64,000 bases of DNA, taken from assembly GCA_018262895.1 (NCBI GenBank), contig JADFDJ010000002.1, positions 1-64,000 of the forward strand, written 5' to 3'. The DNA is from Methanomassiliicoccus sp. GTDB lineage: Archaea; Thermoplasmatota; Thermoplasmata; Methanomassiliicoccales; Methanomassiliicoccaceae. The position numbers and the translations under genes are program-made. Position 1 is the first letter of the stretch. Every line of letters begins with the position of its first letter. The notes beneath the pieces are model-generated. The model was given only the letters and a program-made list of their open reading frames with translations, was not told the DNA's origin and ran no database searches. This document shows, piece by piece, positions 4,341 through 58,122 of the stretch.

Positions 4341-5267
4341 GTGAACCCCATCGAGATAAGCGACCTGAGAAAATACTACGGCGATGTGAAGGCGGTGGAT
4401 GGGATCAAGTTCACCGTTAAAGCTGGCGAGGTGTTCGCCCTACTTGGTCCCAACGGGGCAGGAAAGACGACCACGATCGAGATACTGGAGGGCCTCCGGC
4501 GAAAGGACAGCGGCGAGGTCCGGGTCCTCGGCATGGACCCATGGGAGAACGGTCACGATGTTCACATGAGGATCGGTGTCATCCCCCAGGAGTTCAACTT
4601 CTTCGAGAAGACCAGCCCCCGGGAGGCCATCAGGCTGTATGCCAGCCTATTCAACGTCAAGGTGGATGCGGACGAGATACTGAGGGAGGTCCTGCTGGAG
4701 GACAAGGCCGACACACTCTTCGACAGCCTCTCCGGAGGGCAGAAGCAGAAGATGGGCCTGGCCCTCTCGCTCGTGAACTCCCCCGATCTCCTTTTCCTCG
4801 ACGAGCCCACCACCGGTCTGGACCCCAACGCCCGCAGGGCCATATGGGAGGTGATACGGGGCTTGAAGGCCAAGGGCCGGACGATAGTCTTGACGACCCA
4901 TTACCTCGATGAGGCCCAGCAGCTCTCGGACAGGGTGGCCATCATGGATCATGGGCATATCGTGGCCCAGGGGACCTCCGATGAGATCATAAGGCAGCAC
5001 GGCTCGGGCGAGAGGTTGGAGATCAACGGCAGCGAAGGGCTGGCCGATCACATCCGGTCCACCACTGGCCTGAACGTCCATTATGACAGCGGAGTGGTGG
5101 CCATTGCGCTACACAAGAAGGATGACGCCCTCACCGCGCTGCAGGCGGCCAAGAGCTCCAACATGGACTGGGGAGACATCCGAACTAAAAGGGACAGCCT
5201 GGACGATGTGTTCGTGAGGCTAGTGAGCGGGATCGTGGACGAGAGCGGCGAGCTCCGGGTGCGGTGA
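4341..5267 (+). CDS. ABC transporter ATP-binding protein (ABC-2 exporter)
   Basis: A 308-residue ATPase of a drug/polyketide-type ABC-2 exporter. Walker A is GPNGAGKTT (about 36-44), the signature LSGGQ (about 130-134), and Walker B LLFLDEP (about 150-156) with TTGLDP and the switch histidine in TTHYLDEA. The C-terminal 80 residues form the DUF4162-like regulatory region common in this class. The frame opens at a GTG at 4323, but the GTG at 4341 has GGTGAG six bases upstream and is preferred. The permease starts 4 bases after the stop, so the two form an operon. The substrate cannot be read from the sequence. Confidence 0.93.
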   Translation: MNPIEISDLRKYYGDVKAVDGIKFTVKAGEVFALLGPNGAGKTTTIEILEGLRRKDSGEVRVLGMDPWENGHDVHMRIGVIPQEFNFFEKTSPREAIRLYASLFNVKVDADEILREVLLEDKADTLFDSLSGGQKQKMGLALSLVNSPDLLFLDEPTTGLDPNARRAIWEVIRGLKAKGRTIVLTTHYLDEAQQLSDRVAIMDHGHIVAQGTSDEIIRQHGSGERLEINGSEGLADHIRSTTGLNVHYDSGVVAIALHKKDDALTALQAAKSSNMDWGDIRTKRDSLDDVFVRLVSGIVDESGELRVR

Positions 5268-5271
5268 TCCC

Positions 5272-6411
5272 ATGGCCAACAAGACCAATGGTGGGATCAT
5301 AAGCGGCAGGAGGATACTCGCGGACTTCAAGGTCTACAGCCGAGGGTACCTGAGGAACCGCTTCGGACTTTTCTTCGGGCTCATTTTCCCGGTGATCCTG
5401 ATCCTCATATTCGGGGCCATCTTCTCCGGGACCTCCACGGGGAAGGTCACGGCCTACGTCCAGAACAACGACACCGGGCCGTTCGCCACGCCCCAGATGG
5501 ACGTGGCCGGCCAGTTTGTGACAGCGCTCAACAGCTCGGGGACCCTGGACCTGGTGATGGTGCCCACGTCCGAGGACATGCCGCAGTACCTTGCGAACCA
5601 CTCGGCCTCGGACGGCATCATCATACCCGCGGGCTTCTCCGCGAGCTACTTGGCCGAGCAGAGGGTCAACGTCACCGTTTACGGGAACCCATCCTCCAGT
5701 ACCAGCAGCATCGTCTCGGGGACGGTCGGGGGGCTGGCGAACTACTTCAACCTCCAGCGCTTCAACGGAACGAGCGTCATAGGCCTGGAGCCGGCCACTC
5801 TCAACGCTGAGCAGACCAAGTACATCGACTTCCTGATCCCCGGCCTGATAGGCTTCTCCATCCTGGTCAGCCCCATGTTCTCTCTTGTGAACATCTCCTC
5901 GGAGTACAAGAAGACCAAGCTCTTCAAGCAGCTGAGCCTGACCCCCCTCACGAAGATGGAGTGGCTCATATCCAAGGTGCTGTGGTACATCGTCCTCTCG
6001 TCCGTTTCCTTCCTGCTCATGGTCGGCGTCGGCATAATGGCCTTCGGGGCGCACGTCACCCTGACGATATGGCTGGTGCCCTTCCTGGTCCTCGGTCCCA
6101 CGCTCTTCGCGGCGCTGGGTATGCTGGTCGGGACGGTCTCCAAGAACCCCGAGTCCGCAGGTGTGGCCGGAAACATCGTGACCTTCCCCATGATGTTCCT
6201 ATCGGGGACGTTCTTCCCCATCAGCATCATGCCCGACTACCTCCAGGGCCTGGCGCACGTGCTGCCGCTGTTCTACGTCATCGAGGGTCTTAACAACGTG
6301 ATGGTGTACGGCAACATCGGAGCGGCGCTGATAGATCTGGCCGTCATCCTGGTGATAACGGCCGTGGTCTTCGTGGCAGCCGTATGGTTCTTCAAGTGGA
6401 GGGAGGATTGA
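5272..6411 (+). CDS. ABC-2 type permease
   Basis: A 379-residue membrane partner of the preceding ATPase. There is one N-terminal transmembrane helix (about 28-48), a roughly 130-residue soluble loop probably outside the cell (about 50-180), then five or six hydrophobic helices. The last loop has the LSGTFFPISIMPDYLQ motif characteristic of ABC-2 permeases of the YhgE/DrrB type. It probably exports a lipid-soluble compound or drug. The ATG at 5272 is 4 bases after the ATPase stop and is translationally coupled to it. Confidence 0.92.
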   Translation: MANKTNGGIISGRRILADFKVYSRGYLRNRFGLFFGLIFPVILILIFGAIFSGTSTGKVTAYVQNNDTGPFATPQMDVAGQFVTALNSSGTLDLVMVPTSEDMPQYLANHSASDGIIIPAGFSASYLAEQRVNVTVYGNPSSSTSSIVSGTVGGLANYFNLQRFNGTSVIGLEPATLNAEQTKYIDFLIPGLIGFSILVSPMFSLVNISSEYKKTKLFKQLSLTPLTKMEWLISKVLWYIVLSSVSFLLMVGVGIMAFGAHVTLTIWLVPFLVLGPTLFAALGMLVGTVSKNPESAGVAGNIVTFPMMFLSGTFFPISIMPDYLQGLAHVLPLFYVIEGLNNVMVYGNIGAALIDLAVILVITAVVFVAAVWFFKWRED

Positions 6412-6585
6412 ACCGGAAGGCGGACGGGGCATTGACCTTCTTCATCTGGATTAGGATAAGATCTCCGATCGGACGGGCGTAGTTACGGACCAGAGGATAT
6501 AGGCACTGGGAGCGAGCGCGATTTACGCGTGGGAGCGAGAGCAGGGCTTGTTTCATGTTGATGAGCACGCTCACCTCCTATCGCC

Positions 6586-7242
6586 TCACCACAGTCCGTA
6601 GATCGGTCCGATGAGGAAGAACGTCACGAAGCCGATGGTGTTGCTAAGGCCGTGGGCGAGAACGGCCGCCCATAGGTTGTCATTGAACCGCAGCCGGACC
6701 CAGCTGAAGAACACAGCATCAAGGGTGGTGGCCAAGATCCCCACGACGCCCTGCTCGGAGTGGGCGATGCCGAAGAGCAGAGAGGTGACCAGAACGGTGA
6801 TAACGATGCCCCATCTCGAGCTTCCGACGATCTCCCTGACCCTGATCTGGAGGTAACCCCTGTAAACGATCTCCTCCCCCAACGCCGCCAGCGTCCAGGT
6901 CATGAGCAGAAGGAACGCGAGGTTTCCCACATTGCCCTTCAGGTCCTCGAACGCGCTGAGGTCCTGGCTGGTACCGGTGACATGGCTCAGCACGGGCATC
7001 ACCAGGCCTAACTGCATGACGGTCCATACCAGGACGAGGACCAGGACCATCAGGATGAGGCGGGAGGGACGGTCCACTCTCTTGAACCCGAGAGTCCTAA
7101 CGCCATCTCTTCGGACGATCAGCGATACCGCGCAAAGCCCCAGGACCAAGAGGGTGGGTATGAGCAGGTCCAGGACGATCATGGCGCTGGCGAGCGCAAG
7201 TTCGATAACTGCGACGATTCTCCACCTAACTTCCCCGAACAT
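6586..7242 (-). CDS. CPBP family intramembrane metalloprotease (CAAX protease/Abi-like)
   Basis: A 218-residue polytopic membrane protein. The glutamyl protease motifs are present: EEIVYRGYLQ (EExxxR), FGIAHSEQG (FxxxH) and HGLSN near the C-terminus. The family cleaves within the membrane, and archaeal and bacterial members process prenylated or peptide substrates or give bacteriocin immunity. The frame is open to 7365, but the extra 41 residues are Arg/Ser/Pro-rich and unlike a membrane protein. The ATG at 7242 (MFGEVRWR) gives the usual length and lies about 25 bases after a TTTTATG promoter box. A single gene, convergent with the ABC exporter. Confidence 0.8.
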   Translation of the reverse strand: MFGEVRWRIVAVIELALASAMIVLDLLIPTLLVLGLCAVSLIVRRDGVRTLGFKRVDRPSRLILMVLVLVLVWTVMQLGLVMPVLSHVTGTSQDLSAFEDLKGNVGNLAFLLLMTWTLAALGEEIVYRGYLQIRVREIVGSSRWGIVITVLVTSLLFGIAHSEQGVVGILATTLDAVFFSWVRLRFNDNLWAAVLAHGLSNTIGFVTFFLIGPIYGLW

Positions 7243-30013: not shown

Positions 30014-30745
30014 TCAGTCCAGGTCCTCTTCCTCCTCCACCATCTCCTTAACGGGGACGCGGTTCTTGTTCGAGCGGACCTGGCCGTCCTTGATGAAGAT
30101 AACCCTCCCGGCCTGGGAGGCCACGCGGTTGTCGTGGGTCACCATGACGGATGTCATGTTCTGCTCGGCGCTGAGCCTGCGGATCAGGCGCACGATCTCC
30201 ACCTTGTTCTTGGAGTCCAGGTTGCCCGTGGGCTCGTCCGCCAGCAGCAGCGGGGGGCGGTTGGCCAGCGCGCGGGCGATCGATACGCGCTGCTGCTCTC
30301 CCGCGCTGAGCTTGCTGGGCCGGTGGTCCTCGCGGTCGGCGAGCCCGACCAGCTTCAGCAGCTCCTTGGCTCTCTGGGTCCTCTCCTGCGCCGTCATGCT
30401 GGTGAGCTCCATGGGAAGCTCGACGTTCTCGCGGGCGTTCAGGAAGGGCATGAGGTTGAAGCTCTGGAACACGAACCCGATCTTGTCGCTGCGGATCCTG
30501 GCCAGGGCGCTCTCCGGGAGGGCGGTGACGTCCGTGCCGTCGATCACCAGCTGCCCCTCGTTGGGCCGGTCCAGGCAACCCAGGATGGTGAGCAGCGTGG
30601 TCTTGCCGGAGCCCGACGGACCGCGGATGGCCACGGACTCGCCCCGGGCGATCTCCAGGTTGACGCCCTGGATGCCGATCACGTTGCGCTCGCCCATCTG
30701 GAAGGTCCTGCTCAGCCCTGTCGCTCTCAGTATGGCATCAGTCAT
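30014..30745 (-). CDS. ABC transporter ATP-binding protein (MacB/LolD type)
   Basis: A 243-residue ATPase. Walker A is GPSGSGKTT (about 40-48), the signature is LSAGEQQRVSIARAL, Walker B LLLADEPTGNLD carries the LolD/MacB hallmark, and the switch histidine follows in MVTHD. It works with the FtsX-like permease whose stop overlaps its start by 8 bases. MacB-type systems use ATP for periplasmic or surface work such as expelling peptides or antibiotics. The operon promoter carries BlaI-type dyads, suggesting induction by cell-surface stress. The substrate is unknown. Confidence 0.95.
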   Translation of the reverse strand: MTDAILRATGLSRTFQMGERNVIGIQGVNLEIARGESVAIRGPSGSGKTTLLTILGCLDRPNEGQLVIDGTDVTALPESALARIRSDKIGFVFQSFNLMPFLNARENVELPMELTSMTAQERTQRAKELLKLVGLADREDHRPSKLSAGEQQRVSIARALANRPPLLLADEPTGNLDSKNKVEIVRLIRRLSAEQNMTSVMVTHDNRVASQAGRVIFIKDGQVRSNKNRVPVKEMVEEEEDLD

Positions 30746-32117
30746 TTTTCAACGCCTCCACCGGCTTGGTCCTGGATGCCCTCCAGGCAGGGTATAGGCT
30801 CCCCAGCGCCCCAAGGCACACGACGATGAGGAACGCCACGAGCATCCACGCGGGGTCGGGCTGTATGGACAGGCTTGCCACCTGCTGCATCCTTCCTCCC
30901 ATGGACGAGGTCGTCGATGAGGGAAGCAGCACCGAGGCCAGTGTCGAGGTGCCGAGCCAGCCGATAACGGCTCCGACGATGCCGGCGATGGCCGAGACCA
31001 TCACTCCCTCGAGCATGAACTGGGCGATGACCGCGCCCTTGCTGAACCCCAGGGTCTTGAGGACCCCGATCTCCTTGGTTCGCTCCTTGACGGTGTACAG
31101 CATCACGAACAGGATGATCAGGCCGGTGGCGGCCACGGCTATGATGATCATCTGCAGGGCGGTGTTCTCCGTCTGCTCGACCGTCGATGACGCGCTGGCC
31201 AGGGTCTGCTCGCTCATCTCCTGCAGGTTGTTGAGCTCCTCCAGGCGGTCGGACATCGTGGACACGCTGACGTCCTCGTAGGCCAGGGAGATCGCGGAGG
31301 CGATGGTGCTGACGTAGTCCTCGTCCTCGGCGTAGACGTAGAGGTAAGACACGTTGGTGCCCATGTCGTAGATCTCCTGAGCGTCAGCGATGCTCATGAA
31401 CACCGTGCGGTTGCCCATGGTGGTGGTGTTCTCGTAGATACCCACCACGGTGAACTCGGTGTCCTGGATGGTTATGGTGTCCCCCACCCCGCATTCGTAG
31501 TACGCGGTCAGGTTCTCCGTAAGCAGGACGGCCCCGGTCTCGCTGGCCTCCAGGTTCCTGCCCTCCAGGATGGTGGTCGGGAGCACGCTGTAGTTGGCGA
31601 TGTTCTCCTCGGTGAGGGATACTCCCAGGACGGTCACCACATCGGACAGCATATCCCTCATGCTGCTCATGTCCGGCATGTTCATCGTACCGTTGGGCAT
31701 GCCCCCGGAGTCGGGCGGGCTGCCCCCGAAGAAGTCCTCTCGGTCCGGCATACCCTCGGTCTGGCTGACGAACGGGACCACGGCCTCGACGCCGTCTATG
31801 GCCTTGATGGTCGAGATCACGGTGTCGTTGACCGTGGCGGAGGACTGCTGTCCCGGCGCCCCCTGCCTCTGTGAGGAGAACGAGGAGCCGGTATTGCCGA
31901 CCTCGATCAGCGTGGACGTGTTCTCGATCTCCGCGGCCTGGGCGGCGTAATCTACGGCCATCCTGTCGTTGAGCTGCTCCATCGCCGACTGGCTGGCGTT
32001 CAGCCCGGCGGGGATGGATATCATGACAGCCATGGCGATCCCTATCGCGATGACGGCGAGGATGACCCTCCCCTTCCGGCGCGCGATGTTCCTGGCGGCC
32101 CTGCTTGCTATTCCCAA
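30738..32117 (-). CDS. MacB/FtsX-type ABC permease
   Basis: About 459 residues. One N-terminal helix (RGRVILAVIAIGIAMAVMISIPAG region), a roughly 240-residue extracytoplasmic MacB-like domain with Ser/Met/Gly-rich stretches, and three C-terminal FtsX helices ending in LGSLYPAWRASRTKPVEALKND, the typical FtsX tail. The open frame reaches an ATG at 32156, but the TATA box at 32178-32187 would place the transcript start there. The TTG at 32117 has GAGGTG six bases upstream and begins LGIASRAARNIARRK, so it is preferred. It is the first gene of the operon. Confidence 0.85.
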   Translation of the reverse strand: MGIASRAARNIARRKGRVILAVIAIGIAMAVMISIPAGLNASQSAMEQLNDRMAVDYAAQAAEIENTSTLIEVGNTGSSFSSQRQGAPGQQSSATVNDTVISTIKAIDGVEAVVPFVSQTEGMPDREDFFGGSPPDSGGMPNGTMNMPDMSSMRDMLSDVVTVLGVSLTEENIANYSVLPTTILEGRNLEASETGAVLLTENLTAYYECGVGDTITIQDTEFTVVGIYENTTTMGNRTVFMSIADAQEIYDMGTNVSYLYVYAEDEDYVSTIASAISLAYEDVSVSTMSDRLEELNNLQEMSEQTLASASSTVEQTENTALQMIIIAVAATGLIILFVMLYTVKERTKEIGVLKTLGFSKGAVIAQFMLEGVMVSAIAGIVGAVIGWLGTSTLASVLLPSSTTSSMGGRMQQVASLSIQPDPAWMLVAFLIVVCLGALGSLYPAWRASRTKPVEALKND

Positions 32118-32177
32118 ATAATGCACCTCGGGTGATGGGGCGATGGCCCCTACCATAGGTGCGATGGTCGCGGCCGT

Positions 32178-32204
32178 ATTATAATGTTACTATGTAAGAT
32201 AGTA
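32178..32204 (-). promoter_or_regulatory. BlaI-type dyad and TATA box of the ABC operon
   Basis: TACTATGTAAGATAGTA (32188-32204) has 6-bp perfect arms. On the minus strand it lies directly upstream of ATTATAATA (TATA box, 32178-32187). A repressor bound here would cover the site of TFB. A near-identical dyad lies at 32314-32330. A BlaI/MecI-type repressor is encoded 1.4 kb upstream. Confidence 0.65.
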
Positions 32205-32313
32205 GCAAAAGTAAAGAAGTCTTGGTCCGAAGGGTGAAATCGGACTGGGGGAGGTTGCATATTGATGGACTAAGACCTCTGGTTATCTAATAATCACAGT
32301 TGTATTAATACAT

Positions 32314-32330
32314 TACTATTTACAATAGTA
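32314..32330. promoter_or_regulatory. second BlaI-type dyad
   Basis: TACTATTTACAATAGTA has 7-bp perfect arms and a 3-bp centre, and shares TACTAT...ATAGTA with the dyad at 32188-32204. TATTAATA (32303-32310) next to it could be a second promoter box for the ABC operon. It lies 8 bases past the end of the peptidase gene. Confidence 0.6.
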
Positions 32331-32337
32331 GCTATTA

Positions 32338-33636
32338 TCAAATCGTTGATTCTTCCAAGAAGTGGTCGACGGGCATAAAGGGTACACGCATGCCGGGGAG
32401 GGCGACTGGCCCAGCCATGTTTATATCAGCAGGACCGGTCACGTTACCCAGCGGGCGGAGCTCCACGTGATGGTCGAACACCGGCATCGCATCCATCACG
32501 CCATGCATCTCCATGTGGAGGATCTCACTTCGGACCTCGCCCAGGCCTGACAGCAGCACCACGGTGGCCAGGAGGACTGCGATGGAGAGCACCAGGCAGG
32601 TGCGGGGGGACAGGGGTCCCCGGTCAATGCCCTCGGCGAAGGACCGGGCGCGGTCCCCCAGGGACGGATGGCTGGACATCAGGGATGACCGCTCGGTGAA
32701 GGAGAGCGCGAAGCACAGCCCCAGCCTGGTGGCCCAACTGGACTTCCTGCTACTAGTGCCGAGGAAGGAGGTGACCTTCTCGATGGCCCGGAGCAGGGAG
32801 GTCTTCTCCTCGAGCACGGACCTGGCGGTCTCGTCCGCCAGCCTCTCCCTCTCCCTCTGGGCCGCCCTTACCGAGAGATGGGATGCCGGGTTGAAGAACT
32901 GCACCCAGGACAACGCCCTGATGGCGGTGCGGAACCACACGTCCCGATTCTTGACGTGCGAGAGCTCGTGGGCCGCGACCGCCCTCAGCTCCTGCCGGTC
33001 CAGCAGCTCCAGGATGCCCAGGGAGAACACCACCGTGGTGCCCCTGCCGCGGCCGAAGGTGAACGCGTTGGGTCGGAGGTCCTCGACCAGACCGAGCCTG
33101 GGCATATTGATGCTCAGGGCGGCAGAGAGGTCTGCGACGTCCGCCCACAGCTCAGGAAAGTCCTCCGGGGAGAGATCGACGACCCGTAGAAGCCTCCTTG
33201 CCAAGCGGTCCCCCAAGAGCACGGAGAAGGTGAGCGAGAGCATGCCCAGGAACAGGCCGATGGCGATGATGGTGCCCGATATCGATAGGAAGCCATCGCT
33301 CATGGGGCCGACCTGCGGCAGGAACGGGTCCATGGGGGCTATGCCCTGAAGATAGGTTCCGTCCGTCAGCTGGACGAAGAAGGTATGTCCGCCCTCTGGA
33401 CGCACGCCTCCCATCAGCGTAGGCGACAGCCAGAGCACCACCGCCAGGGACAGGACCAACGGGGTGACGATGATGATGCTCTTCCAGCGGGGGCTGAGCG
33501 TGTGGTTTATTCTTATGAGTAGAAGAGAGCTCACAAGGGCTATGAGCATTGTCAACGTGGCGTAGTAGAACGCCGGCTGCATCGCCTGCCACAATATCTG
33601 GTCCACAAGCTCCAGGCTATCCCCTCGCTTCCTCAC
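32338..33636 (-). CDS. membrane M48/BlaR1-like zinc metallopeptidase
   Basis: 432 residues. Three N-terminal hydrophobic helices (about 18-40, 53-70, 110-135), then the zinc motif H223-E-L-S-H227 in AHELSHVKNRDVWF followed by RERLADETA, which supplies the third ligand. A single C-terminal helix and a short outer tail of about 55 residues end the protein. The layout equals BlaR1/MecR1 without a penicillin-binding sensor domain. It overlaps the BlaI-type repressor by 4 bases (ATGA). The likely role is to cut the repressor, or a partner, in response to a surface signal, by analogy with BlaR1-BlaI. This is not proven for archaea. Confidence 0.82.
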   Translation of the reverse strand: MRKRGDSLELVDQILWQAMQPAFYYATLTMLIALVSSLLLIRINHTLSPRWKSIIIVTPLVLSLAVVLWLSPTLMGGVRPEGGHTFFVQLTDGTYLQGIAPMDPFLPQVGPMSDGFLSISGTIIAIGLFLGMLSLTFSVLLGDRLARRLLRVVDLSPEDFPELWADVADLSAALSINMPRLGLVEDLRPNAFTFGRGRGTTVVFSLGILELLDRQELRAVAAHELSHVKNRDVWFRTAIRALSWVQFFNPASHLSVRAAQRERERLADETARSVLEEKTSLLRAIEKVTSFLGTSSRKSSWATRLGLCFALSFTERSSLMSSHPSLGDRARSFAEGIDRGPLSPRTCLVLSIAVLLATVVLLSGLGEVRSEILHMEMHGVMDAMPVFDHHVELRPLGNVTGPADINMAGPVALPGMRVPFMPVDHFLEESTI

Positions 33637-34070
33637 TCCCGTTTTTTAAGCTCCTTCTTAAGCCGGTCAAGCTTATCCCTGTCCATGGATACCTGCTCCA
33701 CGAAGCAGTCCGTGACCTTTTCGCCGAACTTATCGATCAGGCTGCCGAGAACGTCCTGGATGGCGGAACGCTCGAAGTCGTCCCTCTCCATCTTCGGCCA
33801 GTATACATAATACAGACCGCCCTTGCCGCTCTTGACCTCGCGGTCGAGAAGGCCCTTCTCGAAGAGGCGGTTCATAGTGGTCATGATCGTGGTGTACGCC
33901 AGCTTGTTATCGTCTCCCAGAGCCCTGTGGACCTCTCTGACCGTGAGCGGTCGGGTCTCGGCCGCCCATATGGTGTCCAGCACCTTGGCCTCCAGAGGTC
34001 CCAGGAACGAGTCTGTCCTGATCCCTTCAAGGTTGTACTGAGGGAGCGTGTTCTTCTCCTTTTTGCTCAT
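33633..34070 (-). CDS. BlaI/MecI/CopY-type winged-helix repressor
   Basis: A 145-residue repressor. The winged helix (about 20-95) has the BlaI layout: LGPLEAKVLDTIWAAETRPLTVREVHRAL, LAYTTIMTTMNRLFEKGLL and a wing ending in YYVYWPKM. The C-terminal 50 residues are a charged helical dimerisation region. It is the first gene of the repressor-peptidase operon, ahead of the MacB-type transporter. Dyads TACTAT...ATAGTA before the transporter fit the family's known TACA/TGTA-type dyads in outline. A half-site, TACTAAG, lies in its own promoter (about 34092-34098). Confidence 0.9.
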   Translation of the reverse strand: MSKKEKNTLPQYNLEGIRTDSFLGPLEAKVLDTIWAAETRPLTVREVHRALGDDNKLAYTTIMTTMNRLFEKGLLDREVKSGKGGLYYVYWPKMERDDFERSAIQDVLGSLIDKFGEKVTDCFVEQVSMDRDKLDRLKKELKKRE

Positions 34071-34181
34071 CTTGGTCGGTTATTATTGAGCTTAGTAGCT
34101 ATATAGTTTTTCGAAAGAAATTATCGCTGCTAGAGTGATCATCGTTCCTGATGGAGAGAGCGCGATGGCTCGACGCTGCCT

Positions 34182-34643
34182 CTAGACGTTGATCTCCTTG
34201 AGCACCCGCAAGGCCTCGCTGATGTGCTTCCTCGGCTTCATCTGGGAGGTGAACACCATCCTGATCACGCCCTGCCTGTCAATGAGGTACGTGATGCGAC
34301 CCGGTGTCCTCCCCGCCCCCCAGGCACCGTACAGGTCCCGGACCTTGTTGTCAGGATCGCTCAACAGCGTGAACGGCAGCTCGTGCTCCTCGGCGAACTT
34401 CTTGTGGGATTCCACCGAATCGGACGAAACGCCGATGACATCGGCCCCGTTCTTCAGGAACTCCTCGTGCATCTCCCGGAACTCGTGTGCCTGCATGGTG
34501 CATCCGGTGCTGAAGTCCTTGGGATAGAAGTACACCACCAAAGCCTTCTTGCCCTCCATCTGTCCAACGTCCACCATGTTGCCGTTCTGGTCCATAAGTG
34601 AGAACGCAGGTGCGAGATCCCCTACCTTCAAGTGCTTTGCCAT
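34182..34643 (-). CDS. peroxiredoxin (BCP/PrxQ type) lacking the usual resolving Cys
   Basis: A 153-residue thiol peroxidase that reduces peroxides. The peroxidatic cysteine is C48 in YPKDFSTGCTMQAHEF, with the conserved FSLMDQNG and GVSSDSVESHKKF tracts. Classical BCP has a resolving Cys five residues later (TPGCTxEAC). Here position 53 is His, and TPGC is STGC, so it must use a distant or external thiol. No other Cys is present in the protein. The gene is single and ends in TAG. Confidence 0.92.
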   Translation of the reverse strand: MAKHLKVGDLAPAFSLMDQNGNMVDVGQMEGKKALVVYFYPKDFSTGCTMQAHEFREMHEEFLKNGADVIGVSSDSVESHKKFAEEHELPFTLLSDPDNKVRDLYGAWGAGRTPGRITYLIDRQGVIRMVFTSQMKPRKHISEALRVLKEINV

Positions 34644-56433: not shown

Positions 56434-58122
56434 ATGGAAGGTGACGTAGAGAACAAAAAGAAGAGATACGCGGACCTCTACCCGTCCGGTGCCTCCCCCG
56501 ACCCCGGTCCGGAGCGGGATCAAAGTGCTCCTAGCACCGACCAGAGGAACGGCAACGGACCTGGGAAGGCAGGGAAGAGCAGGGGACGGTCCAAGCTCCG
56601 GCTGGCCGTTGGCGCTGGGGCGCTTATCATAGCCGCCGTCCTCCTCACCGGCCCGGTTCTGGGCATCCTCAACGGCCTCAACGGCACATCCTCCGGCATC
56701 CCTGTTCTGGTGCATCTGGGGCCCAGCGACAGGGAGGAGGTCAACGAGGCCTCGGTCACCCTGTCATGGTCCCCTTATGGCCCAGCCGAGAGCTACTCCC
56801 TCCTTATCACCAGCTTCGACCAGTACGGGTTCCGTATGAACCGCTCGTCACCGACGTCCAGCTACGTTCTGCATGAGGTCCTGCTGGACGGCACCTACCG
56901 TTGGACGGTGCGGGCCGTGGTCAACGGGAGCTACGGCCCTGTGGGCGAGGCCACGACCTTCACCTTGAGGACGGGGCTGAGCGCACCGGAGCTGTCATCG
57001 CCGGCGGACGGGAGCGCTGTGACCAACTCACTTCCGGTATTGGAGTGGGAGGAGGTCGCCCATGCCGACGAGTACCGCCTGCAGGTCTCCCTAACCCCAA
57101 CCTTCACCAGCACACTGGAGGACCTCGTCCATGGCGGGCTCTCTTACGCCCCAGCGTTCTCTCCCTCGGACGGCACCACGTACTACTGGAGAGTTTCGGC
57201 CCATCACGAGCCGTTGTTGAGCGCATGGAGCGAGACCTGGGCATTCTCCTACAACGTGATGGTCTCGCCCCCCTCTCTGATCGGGCCCATAGCATCGACC
57301 ACCGTGCTGGGCAGCGAGGTGCTGCTGGACTGGGAGGCCGTCCCGGGGGCGGATATCTATCAGGTCCAGGTCGCGACATCCGACCTCTTTGACAACACCG
57401 CCCTGGACACAAGCACCACCGGCAGCTCGTTCACTCTGGCTCAGCCCCTGGTGGAGAACAGCACCTACTCCTGGAGGGTGAGGGCGTCCGACGACGGGAA
57501 GTGGAGCCCCTGGAGCGCTACGGGGCGCTTCTTCCTTGGCGTTGAGGTCTTCAATGTAAGCTACGAGTGGCTCTACGATGGACGGGTGTGGTCGATGGCC
57601 TCGACCGTGAACGGCTCTGACTACTACCCTCTCCACGAGCAGGACCGTACATACAACTACACCTCCTACGTCGTCATTGACGATGCCACCGTGGCGGCCA
57701 TCGCCGAGGAGCTGATGAGCACCGCCCTGCTCAACGGATACGATCCAGCACAGTTCATGCTCTCCTTCGTTCAGGGAATCCCATATACGAGCGATGAGAC
57801 CACCGCCGGCCAGGTGGAGTATCCGCGCTATCCCCTGGAGACACTGGTCGACGGCGGGGGCGATTGCGAGGACAAGGCGGCGCTGTTCGCTTCGCTGATA
57901 GGGTCCCTGCCGCTCGAGAATGATGTCATCATGCTGAAGTACACAAGCCCGGGGGTCTCCGGCCACATGGCCGTGGGCATCTCCGGTAACGAATACGAAG
58001 GACGGGCGTACATGTACGAGGGGTCCGTCTACTACTACTGCGAGACCACCGCTCTGGGATGGGGCATCGGCCAGTTCCCCCAGGAGCTGGAAGGATATGA
58101 TGTCCTGACCTTGCCCTGCTGA
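56434..58122 (+). CDS. anchored surface protein with FN3-like repeats and transglutaminase-like domain
   Basis: 562 residues. A charged cytoplasmic N-terminus (1-54, rich in Lys, Arg, Pro) leads to one hydrophobic helix (about 56-80). Three fibronectin-III-like beta repeats follow (about 90-185, 188-280, 283-370), each with a Y-x-W-R-V core such as TYRWTVRA, YYWRVSA and YSWRVRA. The C-terminal third is transglutaminase-like: C478 in GGDCEDKAALF and H511 in SGHMAVG. It probably cleaves or crosslinks surface peptides. It is related in function, not obviously in sequence, to the protein at 44218-45744. Confidence 0.85.
   Translation: MEGDVENKKKRYADLYPSGASPDPGPERDQSAPSTDQRNGNGPGKAGKSRGRSKLRLAVGAGALIIAAVLLTGPVLGILNGLNGTSSGIPVLVHLGPSDREEVNEASVTLSWSPYGPAESYSLLITSFDQYGFRMNRSSPTSSYVLHEVLLDGTYRWTVRAVVNGSYGPVGEATTFTLRTGLSAPELSSPADGSAVTNSLPVLEWEEVAHADEYRLQVSLTPTFTSTLEDLVHGGLSYAPAFSPSDGTTYYWRVSAHHEPLLSAWSETWAFSYNVMVSPPSLIGPIASTTVLGSEVLLDWEAVPGADIYQVQVATSDLFDNTALDTSTTGSSFTLAQPLVENSTYSWRVRASDDGKWSPWSATGRFFLGVEVFNVSYEWLYDGRVWSMASTVNGSDYYPLHEQDRTYNYTSYVVIDDATVAAIAEELMSTALLNGYDPAQFMLSFVQGIPYTSDETTAGQVEYPRYPLETLVDGGGDCEDKAALFASLIGSLPLENDVIMLKYTSPGVSGHMAVGISGNEYEGRAYMYEGSVYYYCETTALGWGIGQFPQELEGYDVLTLPC

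Follow-up and report, generated by a model that had tools for sequence, protein, structure and literature searches.

The question raised by this locus is whether an archaeal repressor of the BlaI/MecI type, encoded beside a membrane zinc peptidase and a MacB-type exporter, belongs to a switch worked by regulated proteolysis and, if so, which genes it controls and what it senses. The window, meaning the whole stretch of 64,000 nucleotides that was analysed, comes from a Methanomassiliicoccus-type genome of 2.34 Mb, a genus assigned by NCBI to Methanomassiliicoccales, Thermoplasmatota. As a preliminary description had stated, the repressor and peptidase genes lie directly upstream of the exporter on the same strand, the minus-strand order being blaI, peptidase, permease and ATPase. 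The features are as follows.

30014..30745, minus strand: MacB/LolD-type ABC ATPase (Pfam ABC_tran)
30738..32156, minus strand: MacB/FtsX-type ABC permease (Pfam FtsX and MacB_PCD)
32176..32185, minus strand: TATA-like box of the exporter promoter, ATTATAATAC read on the minus strand
32188..32204, no strand assigned: predicted proximal exporter operator, exact 17-bp dyad TACTATGTAAGATAGTA
32314..32330, no strand assigned: predicted distal exporter operator, exact 17-bp dyad TACTATTTACAATAGTA
32338..33636, minus strand: membrane zinc peptidase of at most 432 aa, the true start lying perhaps about 10 codons inside
33633..34070, minus strand: BlaI/MecI-type repressor gene, 145 aa (Pfam PF03965, 1.2e-22)
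34081..34097, no strand assigned: degenerate dyad (2 mismatches) before blaI, a putative autoregulatory operator, after TATA-like CTATATAGC

The BlaI-like ORF, single-copy in the genome, passes the curated cut-off of Penicillinase_R (PF03965) with 80.9 bits against 22.6, and profile searches matched it to M. tuberculosis BlaI (2g9w) and to MecI/BlaI structures. Its best sub-threshold NCBIfam model is CopY/TcrY, with 44.1 bits against an equivalog cut-off of 121.95. This match favours a reading in which the pair responds to a metal or to some small toxic compound by inducing efflux, as in CopY-type copper sensing, and not to general surface stress. Known CopY proteins carry a C-terminal CxCxxxxCxC motif, and the absence of these metal-binding cysteines from the BlaI alignment argues against such a role. 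The 4-base overlap of blaI with the peptidase gene, reported earlier, exists if the first GTG is used, but is uncertain because orthologous proteins begin about 7-10 codons further in. The same-strand neighbour immediately upstream of blaI (34182-34643, minus) encodes a peroxiredoxin (AhpC-TSA), and an AhpC-TSA-like gene also adjoins blaI in G020 and G019. The exporter is of the MacB/LolCDE/FtsEX type, combining a permease that has an FtsX C-terminal part and MacB_PCD with a MacB/LolD-like ATPase, and scores below the NCBIfam equivalog cut-offs for MacB, LolC/E and FtsX.

The gap between the peptidase and permease genes (32157-32337) is 181 bases long and holds both exact dyads, each with 6-base arms and a 5-base spacer, in agreement with the two dyads previously placed in a gap of about 180 bases. 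Pattern searches for TACTAT-N5-ATAGTA with at most 2 mismatches gave 3 matches in the window where 0.27 would be expected, a count reached in 0 of 100 shuffles; genome-wide, the two exporter dyads are the sole exact copies. Read on the minus strand, the proximal dyad is followed after 2 bases by the TATA-like ATTATAATA, oriented to the permease, so one dyad does lie next to the exporter TATA box as first described. The same promoter layout, dyad-AC-ATTATTATA, is also present in G020 and G022. Absent from the preliminary description was a further dyad, TACTAAGCTCAATAATA, which lies 11-27 bases ahead of the blaI ATG and directly 3' of CTATATAGC (shuffle p = 0.01). Its 2 mismatches were counted against the switch reading. 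A dyad occupies the equivalent place in G019, G020, G022, G125 and G134, and blaI of the window and its relatives thus appears to carry a palindromic site at its own promoter.

To establish how far this arrangement is conserved, 147 genomes of the order were surveyed. A full-length peptidase was found in five of them (G000, G020, G022, G125 and G134); each has a dyad where the peptidase gene ends and another just ahead of blaI. The pattern GCTACTA-N7-TAGTA occurs in 8 genomes, these five included, and its position is always the 3' end of the peptidase gene. In G022 and G125 orthologues of the permease stand behind the same pair, in window-like order. Two of the five methanogen loci, those of G134 and of G020, a relative of the same genus as the window, keep the pair and lack the exporter. 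Behind their peptidase genes a dyad and TATA-like box persist (L047 of G020, 5278-5320; L050 of G134, 5080-5110), apparently relic promoters left after exporter loss; in G020 the peptidase reading frame now runs into, or ends inside, the dyad and TATA-like box. The blaI of G019 is an orphan repressor: in L147 (1474-1938) the gene and its operator are followed by a convergent oligopeptidase gene, with neither peptidase nor exporter. Both the missing exporters and the G019 operator without a peptidase behind it were counted against the switch reading.

A scan of named genomes identified blaI relatives with 41-52% identity in Bathyarchaeota, Brockarchaeota and Thermoproteota. Where the contig extended far enough, the next gene was that of the same peptidase; apart from G019, the pair is adjacent at every archaeal locus long enough to show it. 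In these phyla the pairs with dyads adjoin MacB or ABC-2 exporters. At one locus, L066, two perfect dyads lie between the pair and a divergent MacB exporter, whose permease is 35% and whose ATPase is 57% identical to its counterpart in the window, and six others have a divergent ABC-2-type exporter with, in those examined, a large secreted NEW3/Ig-type protein. A dyad precedes the MacB-type exporter in 4 of 4 archaea found with that arrangement. The earlier proposal that the exporter is a target of the circuit is supported, but the exporter is not an obligatory target.

Upstream of blaI, TACTAT-N5-ATAGTA with at most 2 mismatches, a query taken from the window's exporter dyads, was found at 14 of 15 archaeal loci spanning Thermoplasmatota, Bathyarchaeota, Brockarchaeota and Thermoproteota, with shuffle p values of 0.002 to 0.06 for the 14. 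The relaxed form TACTAY/RTAGTA was found at all 15 of the same loci versus 3.6% of random windows and, with at most 1 mismatch, at 33 of 67 bacterial blaI relatives versus 2.2% of random windows, figures that are descriptive, as this form was picked after the bacterial sites had been seen and the loci are not fully independent. The 30 archaeal sites collected give the consensus GCTACTAY-N5-RTAGTA, after which A or G and then C are the usual bases. At blaI and surface-protein promoters the dyad shares its 5' edge with a TATA-like box (as in AAATAGC), while at exporter promoters within the genus 2 bases separate the end of the dyad from the box that follows. Two BlaI proteins of C. thermocellum, studied by DAP-seq and gel shifts, recognize GTCTAT inverted repeats 5 nt apart and also a similar GACTAT repeat, and the sites ahead of their target genes are paired (PMC8457756). 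Because the dyad accompanies blaI into distant bacteria, and because C. thermocellum BlaI binds the same geometry, the 17-bp dyad is most likely the BlaI operator. The two systems share inverted 6-base arms 5 nt apart, paired sites, autoregulation and BlaR1-type operon genes; the archaeal one differs in its TACTAT arm, its archaeal promoters and its targets.

Candidate targets also lie away from the locus. The best unlinked non-coding dyad genome-wide (G000:C8:19472, 1 mismatch), likewise missing from the preliminary description, is 25 bases ahead of the ATG of a gene whose 527-aa product combines a single TM helix with Fn3-type domains and a transglutaminase-like region. The G022 orthologue is 54% identical, has the dyad in its promoter too, and its transglutaminase-like domain is over the Pfam DUF553 cut-off. 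Homologues with 37% identity in G018 and G014, genomes in which the BlaI-peptidase locus was not found, have no good dyad, G014 showing only an AT-rich 2-mismatch match. HtrA-like proteases with a dyad occur in three archaea (G450, G451 and G453, at L067, L068 and L203), the L203 gene and blaI being on different contigs. HtrA as a universal target was rejected, as most HtrA genes tested in other genomes are without a dyad, and this too was counted against the switch reading. The check that had been proposed for the dyads, conservation at homologous loci, was passed, with recurrence in other archaeal phyla and at unlinked surface-protein and HtrA genes.

Several further matches were examined. 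Two 1-mismatch sites of G000 (L004 and L005), located inside ORFs or where ORFs overlap, were left out of the target count, and dyads at the start codon of a carbamate-kinase-like gene (L201, G134), inside a reading frame (L202, G450) or without a clear target (L204, G022) were treated as unproven or due to chance. L205 (G134, 4771-6970) offers a candidate further target, a secreted right-handed beta-helix (NosD-like) protein whose gene start is separated from a TATA-like box by an exact dyad. In L200 (G125, 5122-5511) an exact dyad by a TATA-like box is ahead of a gene for a zinc-ribbon, probably membrane, protein. A 562-aa paralogue of the Fn3/transglutaminase-like surface protein is encoded in the window itself (56434-58122, plus strand) with no dyad upstream.

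Short, AT-rich and intergenic as they are, the dyads could be chance inverted repeats or terminators of the peptidase gene. This explanation is scarcely credible in view of the shuffles and whole-genome counts, the recurrence at homologous positions in several phyla and the way in which dyads abut TATA-like boxes of unlinked genes. The terminator role was rejected because dyads occupy promoter positions of unlinked genes.

To place the peptidase, both its build and its sequence relationships were considered. In BlaR1 three TM helices precede a cytosolic HExxH/ExxxD site, and a fourth leads to the outer C-terminus (PMC9834060). The archaeal protein is built in the same way, as a membrane gluzincin with three predicted TM helices, HELSH at residue 223, ERLAD at 264, one further TM helix and an outer tail of about 55 residues, and HExxH and E..AD are invariant in 13 peptidase sequences. 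With three helices before and one after a complete HExxH/E..AD site, the active site should face the cytosol, leaving a 45-residue loop and the 55-residue tail outside, as in BlaR1. No Pfam match to a penicillin-binding (class D beta-lactamase-like) sensor domain was found, about 55 residues remaining after the last TM helix. The 3+1 topology is common to BlaI-linked bacterial M56 proteins and is unlike that of HtpX (M48B) in related genomes, which has two TM helices before the zinc site, no outer tail and about 290-300 aa against 395-505 for the peptidase.

In sequence, however, HtpX proteins are the closest relatives of the peptidase core. The top Pfam family is M48 (1.1e-20), above M56/BlaR1 (1.4e-9), and PDB profile matches likewise favour HtpX (1.8e-17) over BlaR1 (6e-6). 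The NCBIfam scores are 22 bits for blaR1 against a cut-off of 400 and 83.8 bits for HtpX against an equivalog cut-off of 341, both below threshold. In the tree the archaeal peptidases form one clade (82/89) beside HtpX and not with bacterial M56 proteins, a placement to be read with the long M56 branches in mind. The AlphaFold model is moderate (pLDDT 69.5, pTM 0.66), with an unreliable external loop and tail; Foldseek with this model listed ZMPSTE24 and BlaR1 among the top matches, and no claim was based on fold alone. The peptidase is thus BlaR1-like in build and HtpX-like in sequence and, by strict tests, a member of neither family. The earlier assignment as a BlaR1-like zinc peptidase without a beta-lactam sensor keeps its topology, zinc motifs and missing sensor, while its implied sequence kinship gives way to M48/HtpX.

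This closeness to HtpX was counted against the switch reading and favours another, in which BlaI is an ordinary autoregulated repressor freed by a ligand or another protease, and the peptidase, only transcribed together with it, is an HtpX-like protease for quality control that degrades membrane proteins and leaves BlaI uncut. HtpX in bacteria is a stress-regulated protease, and G019 retains blaI without the peptidase, both of which fit such a role. The 3+1 topology with an outer tail, on the other hand, is that of BlaR1 and not HtpX, the pair is adjacent at all sufficiently long archaeal loci apart from G019, and BlaI is paired with a gluzincin membrane protease across bacteria too. The archaeal BlaI proteins also form one clade (100/99) alongside the single peptidase clade, so the two have probably travelled together. 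We therefore regard a bystander peptidase as rather unlikely.

The preferred reading, which we consider likely, is that the locus is an archaeal BlaR1-BlaI-like switch of regulated proteolysis for its own operon, the exporter and at least one unlinked surface-protein gene. BlaI would bind the palindrome GCTACTAY-N5-RTAGTA over or beside TATA boxes and repress not only its own operon with the peptidase but also the MacB-type exporter and, away from the locus, one or more membrane-anchored Fn3/transglutaminase-like proteins; we infer repression because a repressor at these dyad positions should clash with TBP, TFB or RNAP. The four-helix peptidase would detect a signal at the outer face of the membrane through its external loop or tail, and its cytosolic zinc site would become active; the activated peptidase would inactivate BlaI, presumably by cleavage, releasing the surface-maintenance genes. 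Comparative genomics gives good support to the predicted operator, autoregulation, exporter/surface-protein regulon, peptidase topology and intact zinc ligands; repression as opposed to activation, BlaI cleavage by the peptidase and the nature of the signal are what we infer.

As to that signal, the metal or toxic-compound reading gains from several same-dyad bacterial loci that adjoin RND (CusA/CzcA-like) or P-type-ATPase-like ORFs, judged by N-terminal sequence only, and from outer peptidase tails rich in His and/or Met in the window and G022. This enrichment is confined to a few methanogen sequences and was not found in other archaeal peptidases, and a metal-binding role of the tail was rejected on this ground. 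Moreover, no metal pumps are among the archaeal targets, which comprise exporters of the MacB or ABC-2 type, HtrA and surface proteins, and metal or toxic efflux is improbable for the archaeal pair. The bacterial pairs by RND-like or P-type-ATPase-like ORFs (L076, L082, L086 and L080, named by eye) hint at metal-linked versions.

Targets of these kinds (exporters, HtrA-type proteases, and surface proteins of the transglutaminase-like and Ig types) point to damage of the surface or membrane as the signal, and the surface-stress circuit first proposed is favoured more strongly than by the single locus, through the cross-phylum dyads and the unlinked surface-protein and HtrA targets. More tentatively, these parts could form an archaeal envelope-stress response in several phyla. 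Damage to the surface or membrane would be sensed by a distinct archaeal protease clade that combines an HtpX-like sequence with a BlaR1-like topology, and the protease would then destroy BlaI, the common repressor of ABC exporters, transglutaminase-like surface proteins and proteases of the HtrA type. Literature searches returned no description of an archaeal BlaI-peptidase pair or circuit, nothing relevant on BlaI-MacB-M56 clusters, no TACTAC BlaI operator and, among paper titles, no archaeal envelope stress response. Sensing of damage outside the archaeal membrane is little described, and the locus offers a repressor, an operator, a candidate sensor protease and a target list; as the parts recur across phyla, archaeal surface-damage sensing becomes a testable question.

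The closest known systems are BlaR1-BlaI and MecR1-MecI of Staphylococcus and Bacillus licheniformis, in which a BlaI-fold repressor beside a membrane gluzincin is likewise autoregulated together with its targets. The archaeal locus differs in having no beta-lactam sensor, a peptidase nearer M48, archaeal TATA promoters, and an exporter and surface protein as targets instead of beta-lactamase or PBP2a. This points to a BlaR1-BlaI logic that extends beyond beta-lactam resistance, penicillin sensing being one specialisation. The BlaI-peptidase-MacB pairing is not unique to archaea, since BlaI-M56-MacB clusters occur in bacteria (L085, L115 and L128), with a repressor, a sensorless peptidase, MacB-type permease and ATPase, and a TACTAT-type dyad near blaI. 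Unlike the archaeal locus, these clusters have an M56 (BlaR1-type) peptidase and bacterial promoters, and L128 includes an FtrD-like Fe-S protein.
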